Source: Agathobaculum sp. NTUH-O15-33 (GTDB lineage: Bacteria; Bacillota; Clostridia; Oscillospirales; Butyricicoccaceae). From it: DNA of 64,000 nucleotides. The position numbers and the translations under genes are program-made. Below are positions 15,357-55,042 of the stretch, in pieces; the stretch's first letter is position 1, and every line of letters begins with the position of its first letter. Where the stretch lies: contig NZ_CP136187.1 of the NCBI RefSeq assembly GCF_033193315.1, forward strand, positions 558,001 to 622,000, given 5' to 3'. The notes under the pieces were generated by a model. That model was given only the letters and a program-made list of their open reading frames with translations, had not been told where the DNA came from and ran no database searches.

Positions 15357-16408
15357 CGGACTTTGAGTTTTTGTCACAAAGGGGGCGGACAGTATCGTAC
15401 CGGTATGAATTGCTTGACAAGTCGGACATGTACCGGCGCGACCTGACAACGGTCATTAACTGCACAATCACTTATGATGCAGAAAGCGACCTAAAGGTAT
15501 CGGCCAACATCGAAATGGGAGACGATCAGGATGTTGACTACGCAAACGATCGTATTCGCGTAGTGTGTGTTGTTCAGTGCGGCGGGGAACGCCGGGAGTA
15601 TCCGTTGTGGACGTTTCTTCTTTCTTCTCCGGCCCGAGAATCTGACGGGACGGTGGCCGAGAGAAATATTGAAGCGTACAGCAAATTGCAGGTTTATGCC
15701 GACGACAAGGTGGAGAGCCGCCACATCGTCACACGCGGAACAAACGTGGTAAACGAGGTAATCCGTTTGCTTGGAGTAAAGACATACCGCCTACCTGCGA
15801 GCGGACTGACATTGGCGACAGACAGCGAATGGGAGATCGGTACGCCAAAACTAGAGATTATCAACGGATTGTTGGAAACGATCAATTATACCAGTTTGCG
15901 CGTTGCTGCGGACGGATATTTTGAAGCAGAACCGTATGTGCTTCCGGCAGACCGAACTGTTGATTTTGCGTACATTGACGACGGTGTGAACCTGTTAGGC
16001 CGCAGCGTTGTTGACGATTTCGATCTGTTTTCCGTGCCCAACGTGTTCGTACGGTACGTGGACAACCCTGATGCAGACCCGTTGCGGTCTGTGTACGTTA
16101 ACGACAACCCGCATTCTCCGTCGTCCACGATTGCACGGGGACGGCGAATCACGAGCTGTGAGCAAGTTAAGGACGTAGCCGACCAAGCGACGCTTGACGA
16201 CTTGACGCGACGAGCGGCTTCTACGGCATCACAGATTTATTCATCCGTCACGTTCACGACCGGAGCCATGCCGGTGCACGGATTTGCAAACATCATTCGC
16301 CTGCGGCACGGATTGCTGGATGGAAAATACGAAGAGATTTCGTGGGAGCTTCCGTGTCTGGCCGGTGAGCTGATGACCCACACGGCGCGGAAGGTGGTGC
16401 AAGTGTAA
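15353..16408 (+). CDS. Baseplate hub / tail-tip protein, 351 aa
   Basis: It overlaps the previous gene by 4 bases. The sequence pattern (DMYRRDLTTVINCTITYDAESDLKVSANIEM, YPLWTFLLSSPARE, EVIRLLGVKTYRLPASG) fits the gp27-like hub proteins that connect the tail tube to the tail tip in Clostridial siphophages. No peptidase domain is seen. Name given from order and pattern. Confidence 0.7.
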   Translation: MTDFEFLSQRGRTVSYRYELLDKSDMYRRDLTTVINCTITYDAESDLKVSANIEMGDDQDVDYANDRIRVVCVVQCGGERREYPLWTFLLSSPARESDGTVAERNIEAYSKLQVYADDKVESRHIVTRGTNVVNEVIRLLGVKTYRLPASGLTLATDSEWEIGTPKLEIINGLLETINYTSLRVAADGYFEAEPYVLPADRTVDFAYIDDGVNLLGRSVVDDFDLFSVPNVFVRYVDNPDADPLRSVYVNDNPHSPSSTIARGRRITSCEQVKDVADQATLDDLTRRAASTASQIYSSVTFTTGAMPVHGFANIIRLRHGLLDGKYEEISWELPCLAGELMTHTARKVVQV

Positions 16409-22013: not shown

Positions 22014-22020
22014 ATATGAC

Positions 22021-22062
22021 AAAAGCCCTCGCCAACCGCAATGGTCAGCGAGGGCTTTTTAT
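22021..22062 (+). terminator. Strong terminator at end of late operon
   Basis: AAAAGCCCTCGC pairs with GCGAGGGCTTTT around a 16-base loop, followed by T5. The reverse strand also has a T-run, so it may act in both directions. Confidence 0.9.
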
Positions 22063-22073
22063 TTAAGACATAG

Positions 22074-22168
22074 AAAAACCACCCTTAAACTTTGAGAGGT
22101 AGCAGGGTGGGACTTCTATTAAACTATACCATATTTTAACTTTAAGATATGGCCTCGGAATGTTTATG
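22074..22168 (-). ncRNA. Small phage RNA gene next to orphan cas7 operon, about 95 nt
   Basis: The minus strand carries a perfect promoter (TTGACA at 22203 to 22198, 17-base spacer, TATAAT at 22180 to 22175). A classical terminator follows: CCACCCT pairs with AGGGTGG at 22110 to 22079, then T5 down to 22074. The predicted transcript begins near 22168 and contains no credible reading frame. It can form a 5' hairpin (CCATAT with ATATGG) before the terminator hairpin. No type I-C repeat handle was found in it. Regulatory RNA, RNA anti-CRISPR or crRNA-like partner of Cas7 are all open. Confidence 0.7.
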
Positions 22169-22174
22169 TGTTGT

Positions 22175-22203
22175 ATTATAGCGCAACTGGTTTGCTTTGT
22201 CAA
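22175..22203 (-). promoter_or_regulatory. Consensus sigma-A promoter of the small RNA
   Basis: TTGACA, 17-base spacer, TATAAT on the minus strand, starting 22 bases beyond the stop codon of the gene at 22225. Confidence 0.9.
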
Positions 22204-22224: not shown

Positions 22225-22743
22225 CTATTTTTTCGATCCTCTTGATGCTACGTGGCGATCATCCCACGATATCAGCGTCCAGCCTTTCCAGTGCATCGTT
22301 TTGTTTTTCTTCCGCGTTCCGGCCATAGAAGCTTTAACCATAATGATCCCGCTTGCGGCTTGCTTCGGCGTGCCGTCTATAATATCGGCATGCTCGCGGA
22401 AAAACCGGATTAGGTTAACGCACTCATATGTTTTTCCCTCCGGGGAGCGGATTACCCAACCTTTAGCGGTTGGCCATTTGTCGGGCGGCGTGTTGGCTAC
22501 CAGTTTCGCTTGTTCTTTCTGTATTCGGGCTGCATGCCCGTATTCTATGGCTTGCCGTCTGCGTAATTCTGTAGCGCACGTCCGGCTGCATGTCTGCTTT
22601 TGGTCTGCTGGCGGGCAAGGAAATTCTTTGCCGCAGATCACGCAGACATTATAGTGCTGCCTAGCCAGTCCGGCACAACGGTACGAACAGTATTTGGCCC
22701 CGGCACGGCTAACGGGCTTTCCACAGTACAAGCAGCGGCTCAT
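22225..22743 (-). CDS. Phage zinc-finger protein, 172 aa
   Basis: Two treble-clef-type zinc motifs fill residues 1 to 60 (CLYCGKPVSRAGAKYCSYRC and CVICGKEFPCPPADQKQTCSRTC). The C-terminal half has the SPEGKTYECVNLIRFFREHADII pattern and ends with KTMHWKGWTLISW. That half resembles a small domain common in Clostridial phages and in NUMOD-like modules of homing endonucleases. No nuclease motif is visible. Last gene of the leftward operon, 15 bases after cas7. A DNA- or RNA-binding role is inferred. Confidence 0.6.
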   Translation of the reverse strand: MSRCLYCGKPVSRAGAKYCSYRCAGLARQHYNVCVICGKEFPCPPADQKQTCSRTCATELRRRQAIEYGHAARIQKEQAKLVANTPPDKWPTAKGWVIRSPEGKTYECVNLIRFFREHADIIDGTPKQAASGIIMVKASMAGTRKKNKTMHWKGWTLISWDDRHVASRGSKK

Positions 22744-22758
22744 AACCACGCCCCCTTT

Positions 22759-23592
22759 TTATTTGACCAATTCACCGCAAACGTATTCTTCCATTGTTAT
22801 ACGCGTGCCTTCGGCCTGCATGTCCACATCGTAAAACGGCCACTGGTCGGACGGCGAAATCGAAACGCTACGAAATACGCGCGCAGGGGAGCAAACGCCA
22901 TTCCGGCAATCGTGTTCCCACCAGAACAGGCGGTGCAATTCCATACTGCCCGCTGGTCGAAAACTAGATTCGTCGCCATTAAACATGTGCAGAATGGCGC
23001 GTTTTAGTATGGGCACATCATCATCTGAAAAACCTGTCTTTTCGGCAAGTTGCGGATGAATGCCGCCGTGAAACACGTAAACACCGCGATCTACAATGGA
23101 CTTATTGCCGAATGTATCAGATGCACGCTTGTCGCCCGTTTCTTCCGCGTTAACGCTACGAGTTACTGCATAATCACGGAAAAACACAGGCGTAAGCGAT
23201 TTTGCAAATGATATGGTCACTGGCCCACGCACGGGAACCGAAGCGTCGCCGGTACCCTTGAAGGCGAATACTTGGCCAAATGCGCGAACATCAAACCAAT
23301 GTTGACAGCAGATATCTCGTATAGTATCTCTGCTCATTTTTTTATCAAAGCCCGGCGTGGTTTTTAGACGCATATCAAGGCTTTTGCATCCGTCATCGCT
23401 GCGTTCATTCGACTGTACGAAGATGCGCTGGCCGTCGTCTTGTAGCCGGTTGCGAATTTTGCGCTTGATGCAGACGGATGTTATTTCCCCCAAACCTTCG
23501 TAATCGGTGCGGGGGCGGTTGCCGTTCGTGGGGTCGCCGTTCGGGTTTGCGCCGTCTACAATGATAACACCCATGAAGTCAATTCGGTTCAT
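22759..23592 (-). CDS. cas7: Orphan type I-C Cas7 (Csd2) protein in prophage, 277 aa
   Basis: Full-length match to Cas7/Csd2, the backbone subunit of type I-C Cascade that coats crRNA. Diagnostic blocks are NPNGDPTNGNRPRTD (16 to 30), GEITSVCIKRKIRNRL (35 to 50), DVRAFGQVFAFKG (101 to 113), VRGPVTISFAKSLTP (121 to 135), KSIVDRGVYVFHGGI (164 to 178) and LAEKTGFSDDD (182 to 192). MELHRLFWWEHD (217 to 228) completes the set. No truncation or frameshift is seen. No cas3, cas5, cas8, cas1, cas2, cas4 or repeat array is present in the window. The ATG overlaps the HTH gene stop (ATGA), so it is translated with a regulator. Possible roles are a decoy that poisons host Cascade or an RNA-binding protein using the nearby small RNA. 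Both are inference. Confidence 0.95.
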   Translation of the reverse strand: MNRIDFMGVIIVDGANPNGDPTNGNRPRTDYEGLGEITSVCIKRKIRNRLQDDGQRIFVQSNERSDDGCKSLDMRLKTTPGFDKKMSRDTIRDICCQHWFDVRAFGQVFAFKGTGDASVPVRGPVTISFAKSLTPVFFRDYAVTRSVNAEETGDKRASDTFGNKSIVDRGVYVFHGGIHPQLAEKTGFSDDDVPILKRAILHMFNGDESSFRPAGSMELHRLFWWEHDCRNGVCSPARVFRSVSISPSDQWPFYDVDMQAEGTRITMEEYVCGELVK

Positions 23593-23939
23593 TCCTGATC
23601 GTCCTCGTCTTCCATTACGCGGGTTACGGTGACCAACCCCAGCACATCGGCCATCATCAAACGGTCGTATTCCGCGCGACCGCCACGTGTTTCCCAATTT
23701 TCAATAGTGCGGAGCGGAATGGCGAAGCGTTCAGCAAATTTTGCTTGTGTCATTCCTACGGCTGCACGCATGTCTTTGATCGACATATGCGCGACATCCC
23801 AAATGTTTGTTAGGTCAGCAACAAACTGGTTGGCATCTTCGGGTGCCCACTCAGGGCACCCGACTTCACCAATAAACTGCTCCGCGCTTTCGCATTCCAT
23901 TGCGTCGCGGATTAAATCGTAGTACTTTTTGTACGTCAT
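23589..23939 (-). CDS. XRE-like helix-turn-helix regulator, 116 aa
   Basis: The C-terminal HTH reads SIKDMRAAVGMTQAKFAERFAIPLRTIENWETRGGRAEYDRLMMADVLGL, a YiaG-like DNA-binding fold. The N-terminal 60 residues (YYDLIRDAMECESAEQFIGEVG) form a separate helical part. The ATG at 23939 has GAAAGGA 9 bases upstream; the frame opens 3 codons earlier. It overlaps cas7 by 4 bases and likely controls its own operon, possibly at the palindrome near 24533. Confidence 0.8.
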   Translation of the reverse strand: MTYKKYYDLIRDAMECESAEQFIGEVGCPEWAPEDANQFVADLTNIWDVAHMSIKDMRAAVGMTQAKFAERFAIPLRTIENWETRGGRAEYDRLMMADVLGLVTVTRVMEDEDDQE

Positions 23940-23953
23940 TTTATACATTCCTT

Positions 23954-24127
23954 TCAGTCGTTGACTAAATCAAGGTTTGCGACATCGTAGCCGATGTCGT
24001 TTAGTACATCCTCTTCCGTGACCATTAGGCGAACGTCTAACAGCTCGCAAGCCTCTTCGATGGTCATGCTGTGATTTGTCATAATGGTTCCCAGAACCTC
24101 GCCGGTTAGCGTGTTAATTAGTTTCAT
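23954..24127 (-). CDS. Small phage protein, 57 aa
   Basis: ATG after AAAGGATGTATTATC. Sequence MKLINTLTGEVLGTIMTNHSMTIEEACELLDV resembles small proteins that precede type II toxin-antitoxin-like HTH genes in Firmicute prophages, but no function is known. Second gene of the leftward operon. Confidence 0.65.
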   Translation of the reverse strand: MKLINTLTGEVLGTIMTNHSMTIEEACELLDVRLMVTEEDVLNDIGYDVANLDLVND

Positions 24128-24141
24128 GATAATACATCCTT

Positions 24142-24495
24142 TCAAAATTCCATTGCGAGAATCATTTCTGCGATCTTGACCTGATAGGTCAATTCGCCGC
24201 GCAGGTTAGCCTTGCGGGATTTCAGGTCTACGAAGCCATCCCCGCGTCGGCTGCCGCCGTTGATATACACGCGGTCAAAATTGCCCTTTGTCCAACGGGT
24301 CAGGGTGCGGGTGTAGCCGTCTGCGATCACGGTCATATTGTTTGTGAACTTCGTGGCGATGACGGTAATCTGTTGGGCAATGAACTTGGCCCGTTCCCAC
24401 GCTCTCCGCAAGCATTCGCCAAAAGGAAGGTGGCAAAAATTGCGTTTGACACGCCAAGCGGCTTTCATGATTTCAGACATGTTATACTTTTTCAT
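24142..24495 (-). CDS. First gene of the leftward accessory operon, 117 aa
   Basis: ATG after ACGGAGGCAAACAAA. Contains MSEIMKAAWRVKRNFCHLPFGECLRRAWERAK, a short motif shared by many small phage and plasmid proteins of Clostridia, and a basic C-terminal half. Function not known. It lies 39 bases downstream of the promoter -10 box and leads a tight operon with the HTH, cas7 and zinc-finger genes. Confidence 0.65.
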   Translation of the reverse strand: MKKYNMSEIMKAAWRVKRNFCHLPFGECLRRAWERAKFIAQQITVIATKFTNNMTVIADGYTRTLTRWTKGNFDRVYINGGSRRGDGFVDLKSRKANLRGELTYQVKIAEMILAMEF

Positions 24496-24527
24496 TTTGT
24501 TTGCCTCCGTTCCTTTACTGTGATTAC

Positions 24528-24556
24528 ATTATACCACTTGTTTGGTGGTACGTCAA
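24528..24556 (-). promoter_or_regulatory. Promoter and palindromic operator of the cas7 operon
   Basis: On the minus strand TTGACG (24556 to 24551), 17-base spacer, TATAAT (24533 to 24528). The spacer contains the inverted repeat ACCAC-N7-GTGGT (24533 to 24549), a likely operator. A related half site GGTGGT recurs at 24560. Confidence 0.8.
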
Positions 24557-25023: not shown

Positions 25024-25371
25024 ATGACAAAGAGATTTAGCAGCGCCGAGCTGGTGAAATGTGCGTATGCGTGCTATAAGGATGGAATAGTATGCGGACA
25101 CGGATTTATGGGCACGGATTTTATGGAAAATACCGATCCGGAGATTAAGGACAAGTACATAAAGCTACCAATGCGGGACAGTTGGAAATTCCGCAATGCC
25201 ATATCCGAAATCGTATACGACAACTTAAAGTTGTTACGTGCGTACTATAACGATCCGGGCGACAAGGATATAGAACAGCAGATAGAATCGTTGTTTAACA
25301 TTCGTAAATTTGTAAAGAAGAAGCAACAGGAAAACATTGCCGATTGTACGATTAACCATGACGTGATATGA
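25024..25371 (+). CDS. Hypothetical protein, 115 aa
   Basis: ATG after GGGGGTGCGTT. A soluble, charged protein with one CYKDGIVCGHGF stretch and a basic C-terminal helix (FNIRKFVKKKQQEN). No family recognised. It lies between the SOS gene and the BlaI-like pair and is probably phage cargo. Confidence 0.6.
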   Translation: MTKRFSSAELVKCAYACYKDGIVCGHGFMGTDFMENTDPEIKDKYIKLPMRDSWKFRNAISEIVYDNLKLLRAYYNDPGDKDIEQQIESLFNIRKFVKKKQQENIADCTINHDVI

Positions 25372-25409: not shown

Positions 25410-25844
25410 ATGCAAAAACTGAAATTGTCCAACACGGAAGAATATTTGATGAATATATTCTGGGCGGAGAATGCTCCGCTTACAAGCGCCGATCTAGTGC
25501 GGTTATCAGAAGAAAAGGAGTGGAGCAGCGCCTATATCCATAGAATGCTTGCATCGCTGAAAACAAAAAAGTTTATAGCAACGTGCGGTGTGACACAGGA
25601 AGACAATCATTACTCACGGCTATTTAAGCCGTGTTTTAGCAAGGACGAGTATATAGTAAAAATTCTCAAGGAAAAGAACGTAGGCACAGCGTCTTTCGGT
25701 AAAATTGCAATGGGACTTGTGAAAAAAGCGACGGGTAAAAAGGCGGAGGAACAAAATAAAAAACTGGTAGCCGACCTTCAGGATATGATAGATCAGTTCA
25801 GGGGAAAGATTGAAGAAATCGAGGGCGGCAGTAATTCGGAATGA
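25410..25844 (+). CDS. BlaI/MecI-like repressor, 144 aa
   Basis: Winged-helix repressor: LSNTEEYLMNIFWAENAPLTSADLVRLSEEKEWSSAYIHRMLASLKTKKFI, then a helical dimerisation and coiled-coil tail. In the family it dimerises on operator DNA and is inactivated by proteolysis triggered by a membrane peptidase. TTACAATA occurs twice just upstream (25379 and 25391) and may be the operator. The stop overlaps the peptidase start as ATGA. Confidence 0.85.
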   Translation: MQKLKLSNTEEYLMNIFWAENAPLTSADLVRLSEEKEWSSAYIHRMLASLKTKKFIATCGVTQEDNHYSRLFKPCFSKDEYIVKILKEKNVGTASFGKIAMGLVKKATGKKAEEQNKKLVADLQDMIDQFRGKIEEIEGGSNSE

Positions 25845-26995
25845 AAATAACCCTGTTTTCTTTTTTCTCAGCGATTTTTTGGAGTGGCATTTTAATTATT
25901 GCGATTTACTTTTTGCGAAAAACACAGTATAAGCGTTATTTTGGCATGTTTACGATCGTCCTGCTGTATTTGTTCTGCGCTGTCAGAATGTTCTTTCCGT
26001 TGGAATTTTCGCATGTGTATATCATCAACGACCAGACGGTATATCCGCAAATTTACAAGGCATTGACGAGCGATGGGGGATTCGGAACTGGCATATCCTT
26101 GCTTCGCGTTGTGGGTGCGGTGGAAATCAGCGTATTTGCCTTTTTATTAATACGTTATATCGCAAATTACCACAAGGCATTAAAAACCATTAAACGATAT
26201 GCCGCATTAGTTCGCAGCGAGCGCACGCAAGACATATTGGGTGAGATAAAGCGTCTTACGAAGAAGAACCTTGACGTTTCTGTTCTTACTGTCAGCAATA
26301 TTGATACGCCGTTTGGGTTTGGTATTTTCCGAAAAATGATATTGCTGCCTCGCAAAGACTATACGGATGAAGAATTGCGCTATATCCTGCTGCATGAATA
26401 CACGCATCTTATTAATCGGGATATTCTGGTTAAGCTTCTGGTTTCGCTTTTCTGCATGTTTTTCTGGTGGTTTCCGGTATCCCATCTTCTTAAGCGGGAC
26501 TTGGAACAAACTTTGGAGATTAAGTGCGATCTATCGGTTTCAAATCACTTGAACATGAGCGAGCGAGCCAGTTATCTACAAACGATCGTAAACACACTAA
26601 ACAATAATAAATCGCAAAATACATTGCCATATGCCGCAACTGCTTTACTTGCTGGCCGCAAAAACACGAATATAGAGGTCAGAGAGCGCTTTAAAATGGT
26701 CACAAACTACGGTACGGGAAGGATTCGCCATGTAATAAACGTACTTATTGTATGCGTATTTGGCTTGCTGCTAATCTTGTCCTATTCCGTTATTTCACAA
26801 CCTAGCTTTGAAGCGCCGGAAAGCACCGAGCCGGATGCAGTAGATTTCGACCCGTCGAACGCTTATATCCAACGCGAGGCGGACGGCTATTGGCTATATA
26901 TTGACGACATTCCGCAGGTGCCCATAAAAGAGGATGAAGCGGAATTTTACCGCAATTTGGGGTTTACGATTATAGAAAGCGGGGATGAAAAGTGA
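25841..26995 (+). CDS. BlaR1-like M56 membrane metallopeptidase, 384 aa
   Basis: Three or four membrane segments, then the M56 zinc motif HEYTHLINRD and the downstream EIKCDLSVS with the third ligand, and another membrane segment near residue 300. The extracytoplasmic C-terminus is only about 65 residues, ending FDPSNAYIQREADGYWLYIDDIPQV. It lacks the penicillin-binding sensor domain of true BlaR1, so the inducer is unknown. Last gene of the prophage, 75 bases before the tRNA fragment. It may sense cell-wall stress during lysogeny. Confidence 0.85.
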   Translation: MKITLFSFFSAIFWSGILIIAIYFLRKTQYKRYFGMFTIVLLYLFCAVRMFFPLEFSHVYIINDQTVYPQIYKALTSDGGFGTGISLLRVVGAVEISVFAFLLIRYIANYHKALKTIKRYAALVRSERTQDILGEIKRLTKKNLDVSVLTVSNIDTPFGFGIFRKMILLPRKDYTDEELRYILLHEYTHLINRDILVKLLVSLFCMFFWWFPVSHLLKRDLEQTLEIKCDLSVSNHLNMSERASYLQTIVNTLNNNKSQNTLPYAATALLAGRKNTNIEVRERFKMVTNYGTGRIRHVINVLIVCVFGLLLILSYSVISQPSFEAPESTEPDAVDFDPSNAYIQREADGYWLYIDDIPQVPIKEDEAEFYRNLGFTIIESGDEK

Positions 26996-27070: not shown

Positions 27071-27120
27071 CCTGCCTTACAAGCAGAGGGTCAGCGGTTC
27101 GAGCCCGTTAACTCCCACCA
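27071..27120 (+). other. Prophage attachment site: 3' fragment of tRNA-Val(UAC)
   Basis: The sequence reads as anticodon stem-loop CTGCCTTACAAGCAG (anticodon TAC), variable loop, T arm and acceptor ending in CTCCCACCA, exactly the 3' two thirds of a bacterial tRNA-Val. The 5' acceptor strand and D arm are absent. This is what remains at the distal junction when a phage integrates into a tRNA gene. The intact tRNA and integrase should lie beyond the left edge. Confidence 0.82.
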
Positions 27121-27496
27121 TCAAAAAAAGACGCCTTGGGGCGTCTTTTTTGTTTTTGCAAGTGCAGAACAGACTGGGCTCATCATGAACCAACCGGTAG
27201 CGGGTCAGCGGTTCGAGCCCGTTAACTCCCACCATCAAAAAAGACGCCTTGGGGCGTCTTTTTTGTTTTGCAGGTGCAAAACAGACTGGGCTCATCATGA
27301 ACCAACCGGCAGCGGGTCAGCGGTTCGAGCCCGTTAACTCCCACCATAAAAAAAGATGCCTTAGGGCGTCTTTTTTGTTTTTGCAAGTGCAGAACAGACT
27401 GGGCTCATCATGAACCAACCGGCAGCGGGTCAGTGGTTCGAGCCCGTTAACTCCCACCATCAAAAAAGACGCTTTGGGGCGTCTTTTTTTGTTTTT
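27088..27496 (+). repeat. Four-copy tandem array of tRNA 3' end plus terminator, period about 113 bp
   Basis: Units begin at about 27091, 27205, 27317 and 27430. Each holds the tRNA-Val T arm and acceptor with CCA, a rho-independent terminator (AAGACGCC with GGGCGTCTT and a T-run) and, except the last, a spacer with GGGCTCATCATGAACC. Units differ at only a few positions. No gene is present. The array looks like repeated duplication of the tRNA end with its terminator. Confidence 0.88.
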
Positions 27497-54636: not shown

Positions 54637-54667
54637 AAAAAAGAACGTCCCATGGGCGTTCTTTTTA
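54637..54667 (-). terminator. Terminator of the cold-shock gene
   Basis: AAAAAGAACG pairs with CGTTCTTTTT around TCCCATGGG; a U-run on the minus strand follows the cold-shock gene. Confidence 0.8.
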
Positions 54668-54676
54668 TAAGTCAAC

Positions 54677-54886
54677 TTATTCCGGGATAACGTTGACAGC
54701 GCGCATCTTGCTGCTGTTCTTGGGATCAACCTCGGACTCGAACGAAACGCGCTGGCCTTCGTTCAGGGACTTGTAACCATCGGACTGGATGGCGGAGAAG
54801 TGAACGAACAGATCGTCGCTGCCGTCGTCGTTCTGGATGAAGCCAAAGCCCTTTTCAGCGTTAAACCATTTTACCGTACCTGTCAT
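54677..54886 (-). CDS. Cold-shock protein, CspA family, 69 aa
   Basis: Complete cold-shock domain with RNP1 KGFGFIQ and RNP2 DLFVHFSAI; binds single-stranded nucleic acid as RNA chaperone. ATG is preceded by AGGAGGTATCTGAGATT. The gene has a long 5' leader of about 120 bases, typical for cold-shock mRNAs. Confidence 0.95.
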
Positions 54887-55042
54887 AATCTCAGATACCT
54901 CCTAAAAAAATTCGATCCTCGTGCCATTAAAAAAACTCACGCTCCGGAAATCATCAAATCGGTCAATGACTTACCGCGAGGTGAGTTGATTGATACATTT
55001 GGACGTGAGTACACTATAACATAGTCGATTGCCGCTTGTCAA
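54887..55042 (-). promoter_or_regulatory. Promoter and long leader of the cold-shock gene
   Basis: On the minus strand TTGACA (55042 to 55037), 18 bases, TATAGT (55018 to 55013). The 120-base leader contains GACGTGAGT and GAGCGTGAG-like repeats and ends with the Shine-Dalgarno. A structured, temperature-responsive leader is likely. Confidence 0.65.

Follow-up and report, generated by a model that had tools for sequence, protein, structure and literature searches.

A stray Cas7 in an apparently self-regulated prophage operon, with host spacers against the same virus, suggests sabotage of host immunity from within

Introduction

Katz et al., in their 2024 study, reportedly found viral databases to be rich in orphan cas genes, and the anti-CRISPRs AcrIB3, AcrIB4 and AcrVIA2 are said to come from Listeria elements. 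These three Cas-derived proteins are homologues of Cas5, the C-terminal part of Cas8b and Cas3, respectively (PMC13131331, on Katz et al., 2024), and AcrIB3 is described in that review as taking the place of Cas5 and ruining the complex from inside. In the type I-C Cascade of D. vulgaris (7kha), seven Cas7 subunits wrap the crRNA together with Cas5c, Cas8c and two small subunits (PMC7684278). AcrIF25 and AcrIE10 act on Cas7-Cas7 interfaces (PMC13131331), the phage RNA RacrIF1 gives rise to an aberrant Cas6f-Cas7f subcomplex (PMC10651486), and a further case of an extra Cas7 is possibly described in PMC7242445. Self-targeting has been argued to be a sign of a CRISPR blocker (PMC7913775; PMC10810201), AcrIC11 being found in the extensively self-targeting Xanthomonas albilineans (PMC10810201), and anti-CRISPR-associated (Aca) proteins are HTH repressors (AcaFinder, PMC9765179).

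Here we describe an orphan type I-C cas7 carried by a prophage in a 64-kb stretch of bacterial DNA (the window). Like AcrIB3, AcrIB4 and AcrVIA2, it is a mobile-element gene homologous to a Cas subunit; unlike them, it encodes a full-length type I-C backbone subunit, Cas7, in an operon with an HTH gene and a candidate operator. AcrIB3 lacks a hook; in the window Cas7 no comparable single loss was identified. Curated models place the protein in the same family as the type I-C Cas7/Csd2 of D. vulgaris (7kha), and its basic residues are retained, but it has no cas5 or cas8 partner, falls outside the clade that holds its near operon-linked relatives and is changed at positions fixed there. The role we propose resembles that of RacrIF1 in that both would draw off Cascade parts, although RacrIF1 is an RNA mimic of the repeat and no ungapped mimic of this sort was found in the window's prophage. 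AcrIF25 and AcrIE10 likewise act on the Cas7 filament, but they are described as small proteins, each with a fold of its own and not homologous to Cas7. The AcrIC11 case is similar in that type I-C self-targeting is tolerated, there with an anti-CRISPR in the same genome; AcrIC11 differs in being KlcA-like and inhibiting Cas3, not Cascade. The likeness to Aca is one of layout, an HTH gene in one operon with a candidate inhibitor and a palindrome at the promoter.

A preliminary description of this DNA held that a Cas7-based anti-CRISPR would be new. That claim must be narrowed because Cas-derived anti-CRISPRs homologous to Cas5, Cas8b and Cas3 are already published (PMC13131331). Neither a Cas7-derived anti-CRISPR nor an orphan or prophage-borne cas7 was found in the literature searched, outside which most subscription papers lie; anti-CRISPRs of this kind are known already, and one made from Cas7 and regulated in this way is, as far as that literature goes, new.

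Results

A complete Cas7 without Cascade partners

The gene under study is the following:

22759..23592, minus strand: orphan type I-C cas7 (csd2), 277 aa, complete (TIGR02589, Pfam Cas_Cas7, PDB relatives)

The preliminary description had recognised a complete 277-residue type I-C Cas7 at this position, and we agree: the reading frame, whose strand was not given then and is the minus strand, is uninterrupted, and the family models concur. In profile searches the protein scored 284.6 bits against TIGR02589 (cas_Csd2; cut-off 182.25) over residues 3-251 and 232.6 bits (7e-69; cut-off 33.2) against Pfam Cas_Cas7, both far above chance, and the solved type I-C Cas7 chains 9jhb, 7kha and 8g9s match it with E values of 2e-37 to 2e-35. 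A fragment or frameshift of cas7 can be ruled out because the frame is open and of full length. Mutated RNA-binding residues had been named as evidence that would speak against the anti-CRISPR idea; the family's conserved basic residues are instead all retained, with R28, K43, R44, K45, R47, R103, R122 and R212 invariant in 26 aligned proteins including the window Cas7. We take these residues as crRNA-backbone contacts.

Searches of the whole 4.0-Mb genome found Cas7 (PF05107) twice, in the window and at 1532103-1532885, and Cas8c (PF09709) once, outside the window. The window cas7 therefore has no cas5c or cas8c partner, the sole Cas8c found in the genome lying 0.95 Mb off beside its own cas7. 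The earlier statement that the 64 kb hold no array stands, none having been found by a direct-repeat scan; of its companion statement, that no other cas gene is present, we can say that the genome's other Cas7 and its sole Cas8c are both outside the window. A type I-C operon joined to the gene just beyond the window, raised earlier as a possible objection, is not there, the operon being 0.95 Mb away. A remnant of a nearby cas operon was ruled out on the same distance and the array-free window.

The prophage around the gene

The cas7 lies inside a 39-kb tRNA-Val prophage bounded by att sites. The prophage is of HK97 type, as described previously, and terminase, portal, Clp-type protease and capsid genes lie between its ends. 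One end is formed by tRNA-Val and the adjoining integrase (545925-547268 of the source genome, G000), and the other lies in the window:

27096..27120, plus strand: attR, tRNA-Val 3' end (25 nt), first of four copies

The 25-nt tRNA-Val end occurs four times at 27096-27459, and 27083-27494 consist of a unit of about 113 bp repeated four times in tandem, every unit carrying the tRNA-Val 3' end that serves as the prophage attachment site. Next to attR, within the prophage, 25410-26995 encode a BlaI-like repressor (a weak match) and a BlaR1-like M56 peptidase. A protein with an ADP-ribosyltransferase domain (PF03496, 1.2e-12) is encoded at 2113-2730, upstream of the prophage terminase. Elsewhere in the window, a borderline Rfam match to the cspA thermoregulator was found at 54637-55030 on the minus strand (78.5 vs 78 bits). 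A prophage contig of a same-species genome shares three similar stretches with the window's prophage, about 1.3 kb in total, and the accessory end is not among them.

The preliminary description had also suggested that the solo Cas7 might occupy a phage RNA. This half of the proposal found no support: the best ungapped match of the prophage to the host repeat has 12/32 mismatches, as in shuffled sequence, so a repeat-mimicking RNA (Racr) in the prophage was ruled out.

The operon, its promoter and a candidate operator

The cas7 is the fourth gene of a minus-strand operon convergent with the amidase gene of the HK97-type prophage. The promoter region and the other members, in order of transcription, are:

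24528..24556, minus strand: promoter-like site TTGACG-17-TATAAT, 11/12 consensus matches (pattern match)
24532..24550, minus strand: candidate operator TACCAC-N7-GTGGTA, between -35 and -10
24142..24495, minus strand: first gene of the operon, 117 aa; phrog_28198 (8.5e-9), NF033948 (E 0.0019)
23954..24145, minus strand: small ORF, no convincing family (scanned as 23954-24136)
23589..23948, minus strand: HTH protein, 119 aa; phrog_25567 (1.3e-14)
22225..22749, minus strand: last gene, behind cas7; treble-clef/HNH-like zinc-finger protein; phrog_1271 (2.7e-9)

The N-terminus of the first gene's product carries a motif weakly like AcrIIA3 (18.2 bits against a cut-off of 70), and a PDB sequence search with this protein returned nothing below E 1.3. 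The HTH protein has its best PDB match in 2ppx, an uncharacterised protein (E 0.0008). As previously described, cas7 is coupled to the HTH gene, its ATG overlapping the HTH TGA by 4 nt (ATGA). Aca operators are typically palindromes at the promoter of the operon that holds the inhibitor, and the layout here is that of an acr-aca operon, with an HTH gene in the same operon and a palindrome overlapping the promoter. Judged from the sequence, the HTH protein is likely an Aca-like autorepressor of the operon.

The exact palindrome is present as a single copy in the window and in the prophage. Because 11% of shuffles of the 105 nt upstream of the operon hold a comparable palindrome, it means little by itself. 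The same palindrome was found at the same place, inside TTGACA-17-TATAAT, before the HTH-cas7 operons of the contigs L037, L039 and L047, and its core recurs ahead of the operon of a gut phage that encodes a related HTH protein (L101). L036 (where the contig starts at cas7), L041, L049, L099 and L100 lack the palindrome. A scan of the viral collection recovered the full promoter-operator in 15 contigs, in ten of which a similar HTH protein is encoded within 3.2 kb downstream and in five of which none is; four of the ten are near-identical, two are L037 and L039, and the HTH proteins were recognised by tblastn with E values up to 0.05, not by profile. Given these ten contigs, Cas7 would be one cargo of a wider operon type, and promoter-operator units with an HTH gene but without cas7 are present in other phage contigs. 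Comparison with the L234 and L235 operons found the HTH gene and cas7 in common with the window, the window's other operon proteins having no tblastn match there.

Several further features of this region can be recorded. In phage operons of L100 (3129-3821), L226 and L228, an HTH of this kind is fused to, or has as its neighbour, a zinc-finger-like protein resembling the one encoded behind the window cas7. A perfect consensus promoter at 22175-22203 (minus strand), just behind the operon, could drive a very stable RNA of about 150 nt (22014-22168, minus strand, z -6.95), whose terminal hairpin also forms part of the end of the amidase gene and which is weakly like the Bacillus sRNA ncr1175 (27.7 of 60 bits) and has no relative in the loci fetched.

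Host spacers against the prophage

Absence of type I-C systems from related hosts had been proposed as a finding that would count against the anti-CRISPR idea; a complete system is in fact present in the same genome. Family models identified cas3, cas5c, cas8c, cas7, cas4 and cas1, the cas2 reading frame was recognised by eye in the DNA, and the operon's own Cas7 (1532103-1532885) is 53% identical to the orphan. Among the 120 best relatives of the host Cas1, the few that bear names are labelled Ruthenibacterium, Oscillospiraceae and Butyricicoccus. The main array has 61 repeats, of which 60 were detected by script and one was concealed by a long gap. The second array, at G000 168917-170133 (L029), consists of 19 variant copies of that repeat and has no convincing cas match in 7 kb. 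The two arrays gave 78 spacers, or 77 sequences since sp2 and sp6 are identical, for which matches were sought in the prophage and, through a genome search, in the remaining chromosome. Among the sites found in the prophage were:

15620..15652, plus strand: protospacer of b2 (second array), 1/33 mismatch at position 18, flank CTT, in a phage tail gene
25107..25140, minus strand: protospacer of sp35, 2/34 mismatches at positions 14 and 15, flank CTC
24498..24530, plus strand: site resembling sp7 at the operon's 5' end, 8/33 mismatches, flank TTT

None of the b2 and sp35 mismatches is in the seed, and position 18 is not known to be read by type I complexes. Other matches to the prophage were those of sp54 (2 mismatches, at 4 and 25; flank GTC), sp36 (3 mismatches, flank CCC) and b5 (6 mismatches in the first eight positions, flank ATT). 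Elsewhere in the chromosome, sp56 matches another region, with a phage transposase and an endolysin, with 1 mismatch (position 18) and flank CTC, and b16 matches the same region with 5 mismatches and CTC; sp14 and sp4 both match, with 4 mismatches, a region that holds phage replication genes, and sp24, sp44 and sp19 have 5, 5 and 7, respectively. When shuffled spacers were compared with the window, the best of 600 comparisons had 10 mismatches.

The working flank, CTC or CTT, was inferred from the best spacer matches in other genomes of the genus, namely exact matches of sp3 (CTC) and sp37 (CTT) and a 1-mismatch match of b17 (CTC), these three in a same-species genome, with sp38 (2 mismatches, CTT) and sp59 (3 mismatches, CTT twice) in addition; running counter to this rule, sp33 (2 to 4 mismatches) is flanked by CAC or CAT. 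With this flank, b2 and sp35 look like working targets; the remaining matches look escaped or distant.

At most two mismatches together with a CTY flank were seen for 3/78 host spacers; an early survey reported self-targeting for 0.4% of all spacers and 18% of genomes (PMC6990116). Two type I-C genomes without the orphan, whose arrays were the two searched of twelve collected, served as controls, G023 of the same genus and the complete genome G095 of the same order. In G023, 0/78 spacers passed the same threshold and no off-array match was better than E 0.59. In G095, for which CTY may not be the flank, 0/171 parsed spacers passed, from an array that extends beyond the stretch used; its off-array matches placed on a spacer have 3 to 6 mismatches and flanks CGG, CGC or GTT, and the count leaves out the matches L218 (91%) and L220 and L221 (weaker), which were not placed on a parsed spacer. 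Escape mutations alone could explain the near-match spacers, sp14, sp4, b5 and sp7 having seed or flank changes. Because sp56 targets another element, the blocker need not be the window cas7, and other anti-CRISPRs may be present in the window's genome.

One further spacer bears on the protein itself. The nearest known relative of the window Cas7 is P0002 (83% identical), from short metagenome contigs (the longest of 4178 bases) that leave its gene context out of view, and sp55 encodes QSNWLNDDGC, identical to P0002 in 10/10 residues; the next best of the 78 spacers reached 7 of 11 residues against 121 Cas7 proteins. The homologous site in the window is:

23384..23416, plus strand: sp55-homologous site in cas7, 10/33 mismatches, flank CTT

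With this many mismatches the DNA match to the window cas7 is not significant alone; the protein match to P0002 is. The spacer is fifth from the leader end, as placed from the cas genes and a decayed far repeat. P0002 is likely phage-borne, and the core pattern of sp55 had 0 matches in viral contigs.

HTH-cas7 pairs in other genomes

The preliminary description had proposed a search for the order HTH-cas7-zinc finger in other prophages, and its HTH-cas7 part recurs: the HTH gene overlaps or directly precedes cas7 in L037, L039, L047 and L049, where a likely lysis gene (recognised by eye) follows cas7 in the opposite direction. Six host Cas proteins were used in tblastn to look for further cas genes around eight relatives in viral contigs, and four (L036, L037, L039, L041) have none nearby, L036 and L041 lying at contig ends and so visible as orphans on one side only. 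Among 19 relatives in species genomes two are orphans, both of Clostridium symbiosum ATCC 14940 (L047 and L049, the latter partly masked inside cas7), and cas8 adjoins in the other 17. The orphan cas7 is intact in the window, L036, L037, L039 and L047, in L037 beside a broken HTH frame. The Cas7 proteins of L036, L037 and L039 are 95-96% identical, like that of L047 from C. symbiosum; the HTH proteins of L039 and the window are 32% identical and both match phrog_25567.

In C. symbiosum ATCC 14940, HTH-cas7 is found on two prophage-like contigs, with a Cas7 diverged from the window's and with the promoter and palindrome in front of the pair in one of them (L047, not L049). The strain has type I-C cas3, cas5, cas8, cas7, cas4 and cas1, so that both orphan-bearing genomes checked carry type I-C. 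Its Cas8c frame (L141 4747-7320, 883 aa) apparently has two extra C-terminal Cas11-like copies. Of its 57 spacers the 46 free of N were used. None of these matches the orphan-cas7 contigs, and 14 match one 22-kb stretch of another contig (C73), with 0 to 2 mismatches and CTC throughout; in most of the 14 only the final base differs, and that base is probably where the next repeat begins. One more spacer that hits this contig, the fifteenth, has 3 mismatches and AGC. The self-targeted prophage has a contractile tail and differs from the orphan-cas7 contigs. Because so many near-exact targets are left intact, the type I-C system of this strain is probably blocked.

Such orphans are rare. A profile search (E 1e-75) found Cas7 of this kind in 36/394 genomes of the order and 38/397 of C. 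symbiosum's family, and cas8 adjoins cas7 in 58 of the 60 loci fetched, which are the stronger profile matches, the exceptions being the loci of the window and C. symbiosum. An orphan in named phage records was ruled out: among 50,697 records, the 4 with a Cas7 match all carry other cas genes near cas7.

Sequence change in the orphan-type proteins

We aligned 25 operon-linked near relatives with seven orphan-type proteins (window, P0002, L036, L037, L039, L041 and L047), P0002 being counted as orphan-type by likeness, its gene context not known. N179, present in 25/25 operon-linked proteins, is H, Y or T in 7/7 orphan-type ones; S236, which is S in 23/25 operon-linked proteins and A in most of the distant ones, is P in 7/7; and L22 is T or I in 6/7. 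Two main-clade proteins without known gene context, P0074 and P0083, have proline at 236 as well. A tree was built from 154 proteins. Of its rows, 131 group in one clade (SH-aLRT 93), among them all 23 near operon-linked ones used; outside this clade lie the seven orphan-type proteins and nine metagenome proteins without known gene context (P0005, P0006, P0009, P0010, P0015, P0020, P0031, P0037 and P0057). This quick tree, which has long branches (L041, 2.12) and from which the operon-linked rows L062 and L065 and proteins outside 255-310 aa were dropped beforehand, supports the exclusion, not the order among the excluded lines. For the two pairs computed, dN/dS is 0.136 (L037-L039) and 0.134 (L037-L036). 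These substitutions may reflect descent from an old sublineage of Cas7 and not a lost function.

Discussion

We give a rough probability of 0.55 to the reading that the prophage encodes a Cas7-derived anti-CRISPR that joins the host Cascade and spoils it. Circumstantial support for such blocking comes from the anti-prophage spacers, from the match of sp55 to P0002 and from the recurring HTH-cas7 operon with its operator. The locus shares two features with AcrIB3-like, Cas-derived anti-CRISPRs: a mobile element carries a Cas homologue, the window having no array and the genome no second Cas8c, and the host has a complete type I-C system and the spacers b2 and sp35 against the element, whose flanks are inferred to function. 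A lysogen would make the phage Cas7 from a strong promoter, probably also early in infection, until the operon's own HTH repressor shut the promoter down. The protein would then bind the host crRNA backbone or the growing Cas7 filament, replacing host Cas7 or mixed with it; if such a Cas7 kept its hold on RNA and on adjacent subunits yet failed at a later contact, it would poison the complex. The resulting complex could not complete interference because Cas8c/Cas11c would not be held, target DNA would stay closed or Cas3 would not be recruited, and the host would therefore tolerate spacers matching the integrated phage. Adaptation (Cas1-2-4) could meanwhile continue, so that lysogens might keep, and go on collecting, self-targeting spacers. 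The fuller statement, that a phage-borne Cas7 lineage apart from working type I-C Cas7 acts as a dominant-negative Cascade subunit under an Aca-like repressor (phrog_25567) through TACCAC-N7-GTGGTA in a near-consensus promoter, letting lysogens keep and collect such spacers, is tentative, and we would put it at somewhat worse than even odds.

Other explanations turn on what, if anything, is being inhibited, and by which gene. The orphan might act on another CRISPR type or RNA-guided defence rather than on this Cascade, for which the Cas3-like AcrVIA2, active on a type VI system, sets a precedent (PMC13131331); the operon, with its weak AcrIIA3-like N-terminal motif and its zinc-finger protein, may also be a general anti-defence operon. 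We consider this unlikely, since both orphan genomes checked carry type I-C and the self-targets belong to I-C arrays. The same AcrIIA3-like N-terminus (18.2 of 70 bits), together with the promoter-operator and HTH units that lack cas7 in other phage contigs, leaves some room for another gene of this prophage, or of another element, to be the anti-CRISPR while cas7 only travels along; this too seems improbable, the HTH gene and cas7 being the only genes found common to the window operon and L234/L235 by tblastn.

Passive cargo, a captured and functionless cas7 with self-targets surviving through mismatches, weak flanks or a silent host system, would fit the rarity of orphans (58/60 loci with cas8 beside cas7) and the seed and flank changes of several self-targets. 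It fits poorly with a cas7 kept intact in the window, L036, L037, L039 and L047, with a dN/dS of 0.13 in two pairs and with an HTH-cas7 order and operator that are the same in two distant lineages, and we give it little credence. About as doubtful is a working spare Cas7, supplied by the prophage to keep or tune host immunity against competing phages, which would account for the retained basic residues and the low dN/dS in related copies. The host, however, already makes its own Cas7 from a complete operon, aid to a system with spacers against the prophage itself would be harmful, and the operator layout like that of an anti-defence operon and the shared changes at otherwise fixed positions also speak against it.

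If a Cas7-derived anti-CRISPR is indeed encoded here, its operator, shared between phages, would offer a sequence handle for finding further anti-defence operons and genes in phages, and the C. symbiosum strain, with 14/46 spacers against a resident prophage, would be a natural system for adaptation under blocked interference. Cas7 repeats along the backbone of type I effectors, so a phage that turned it on its owner would, if this is true, show very directly how one component of an immune system can be made a poison.
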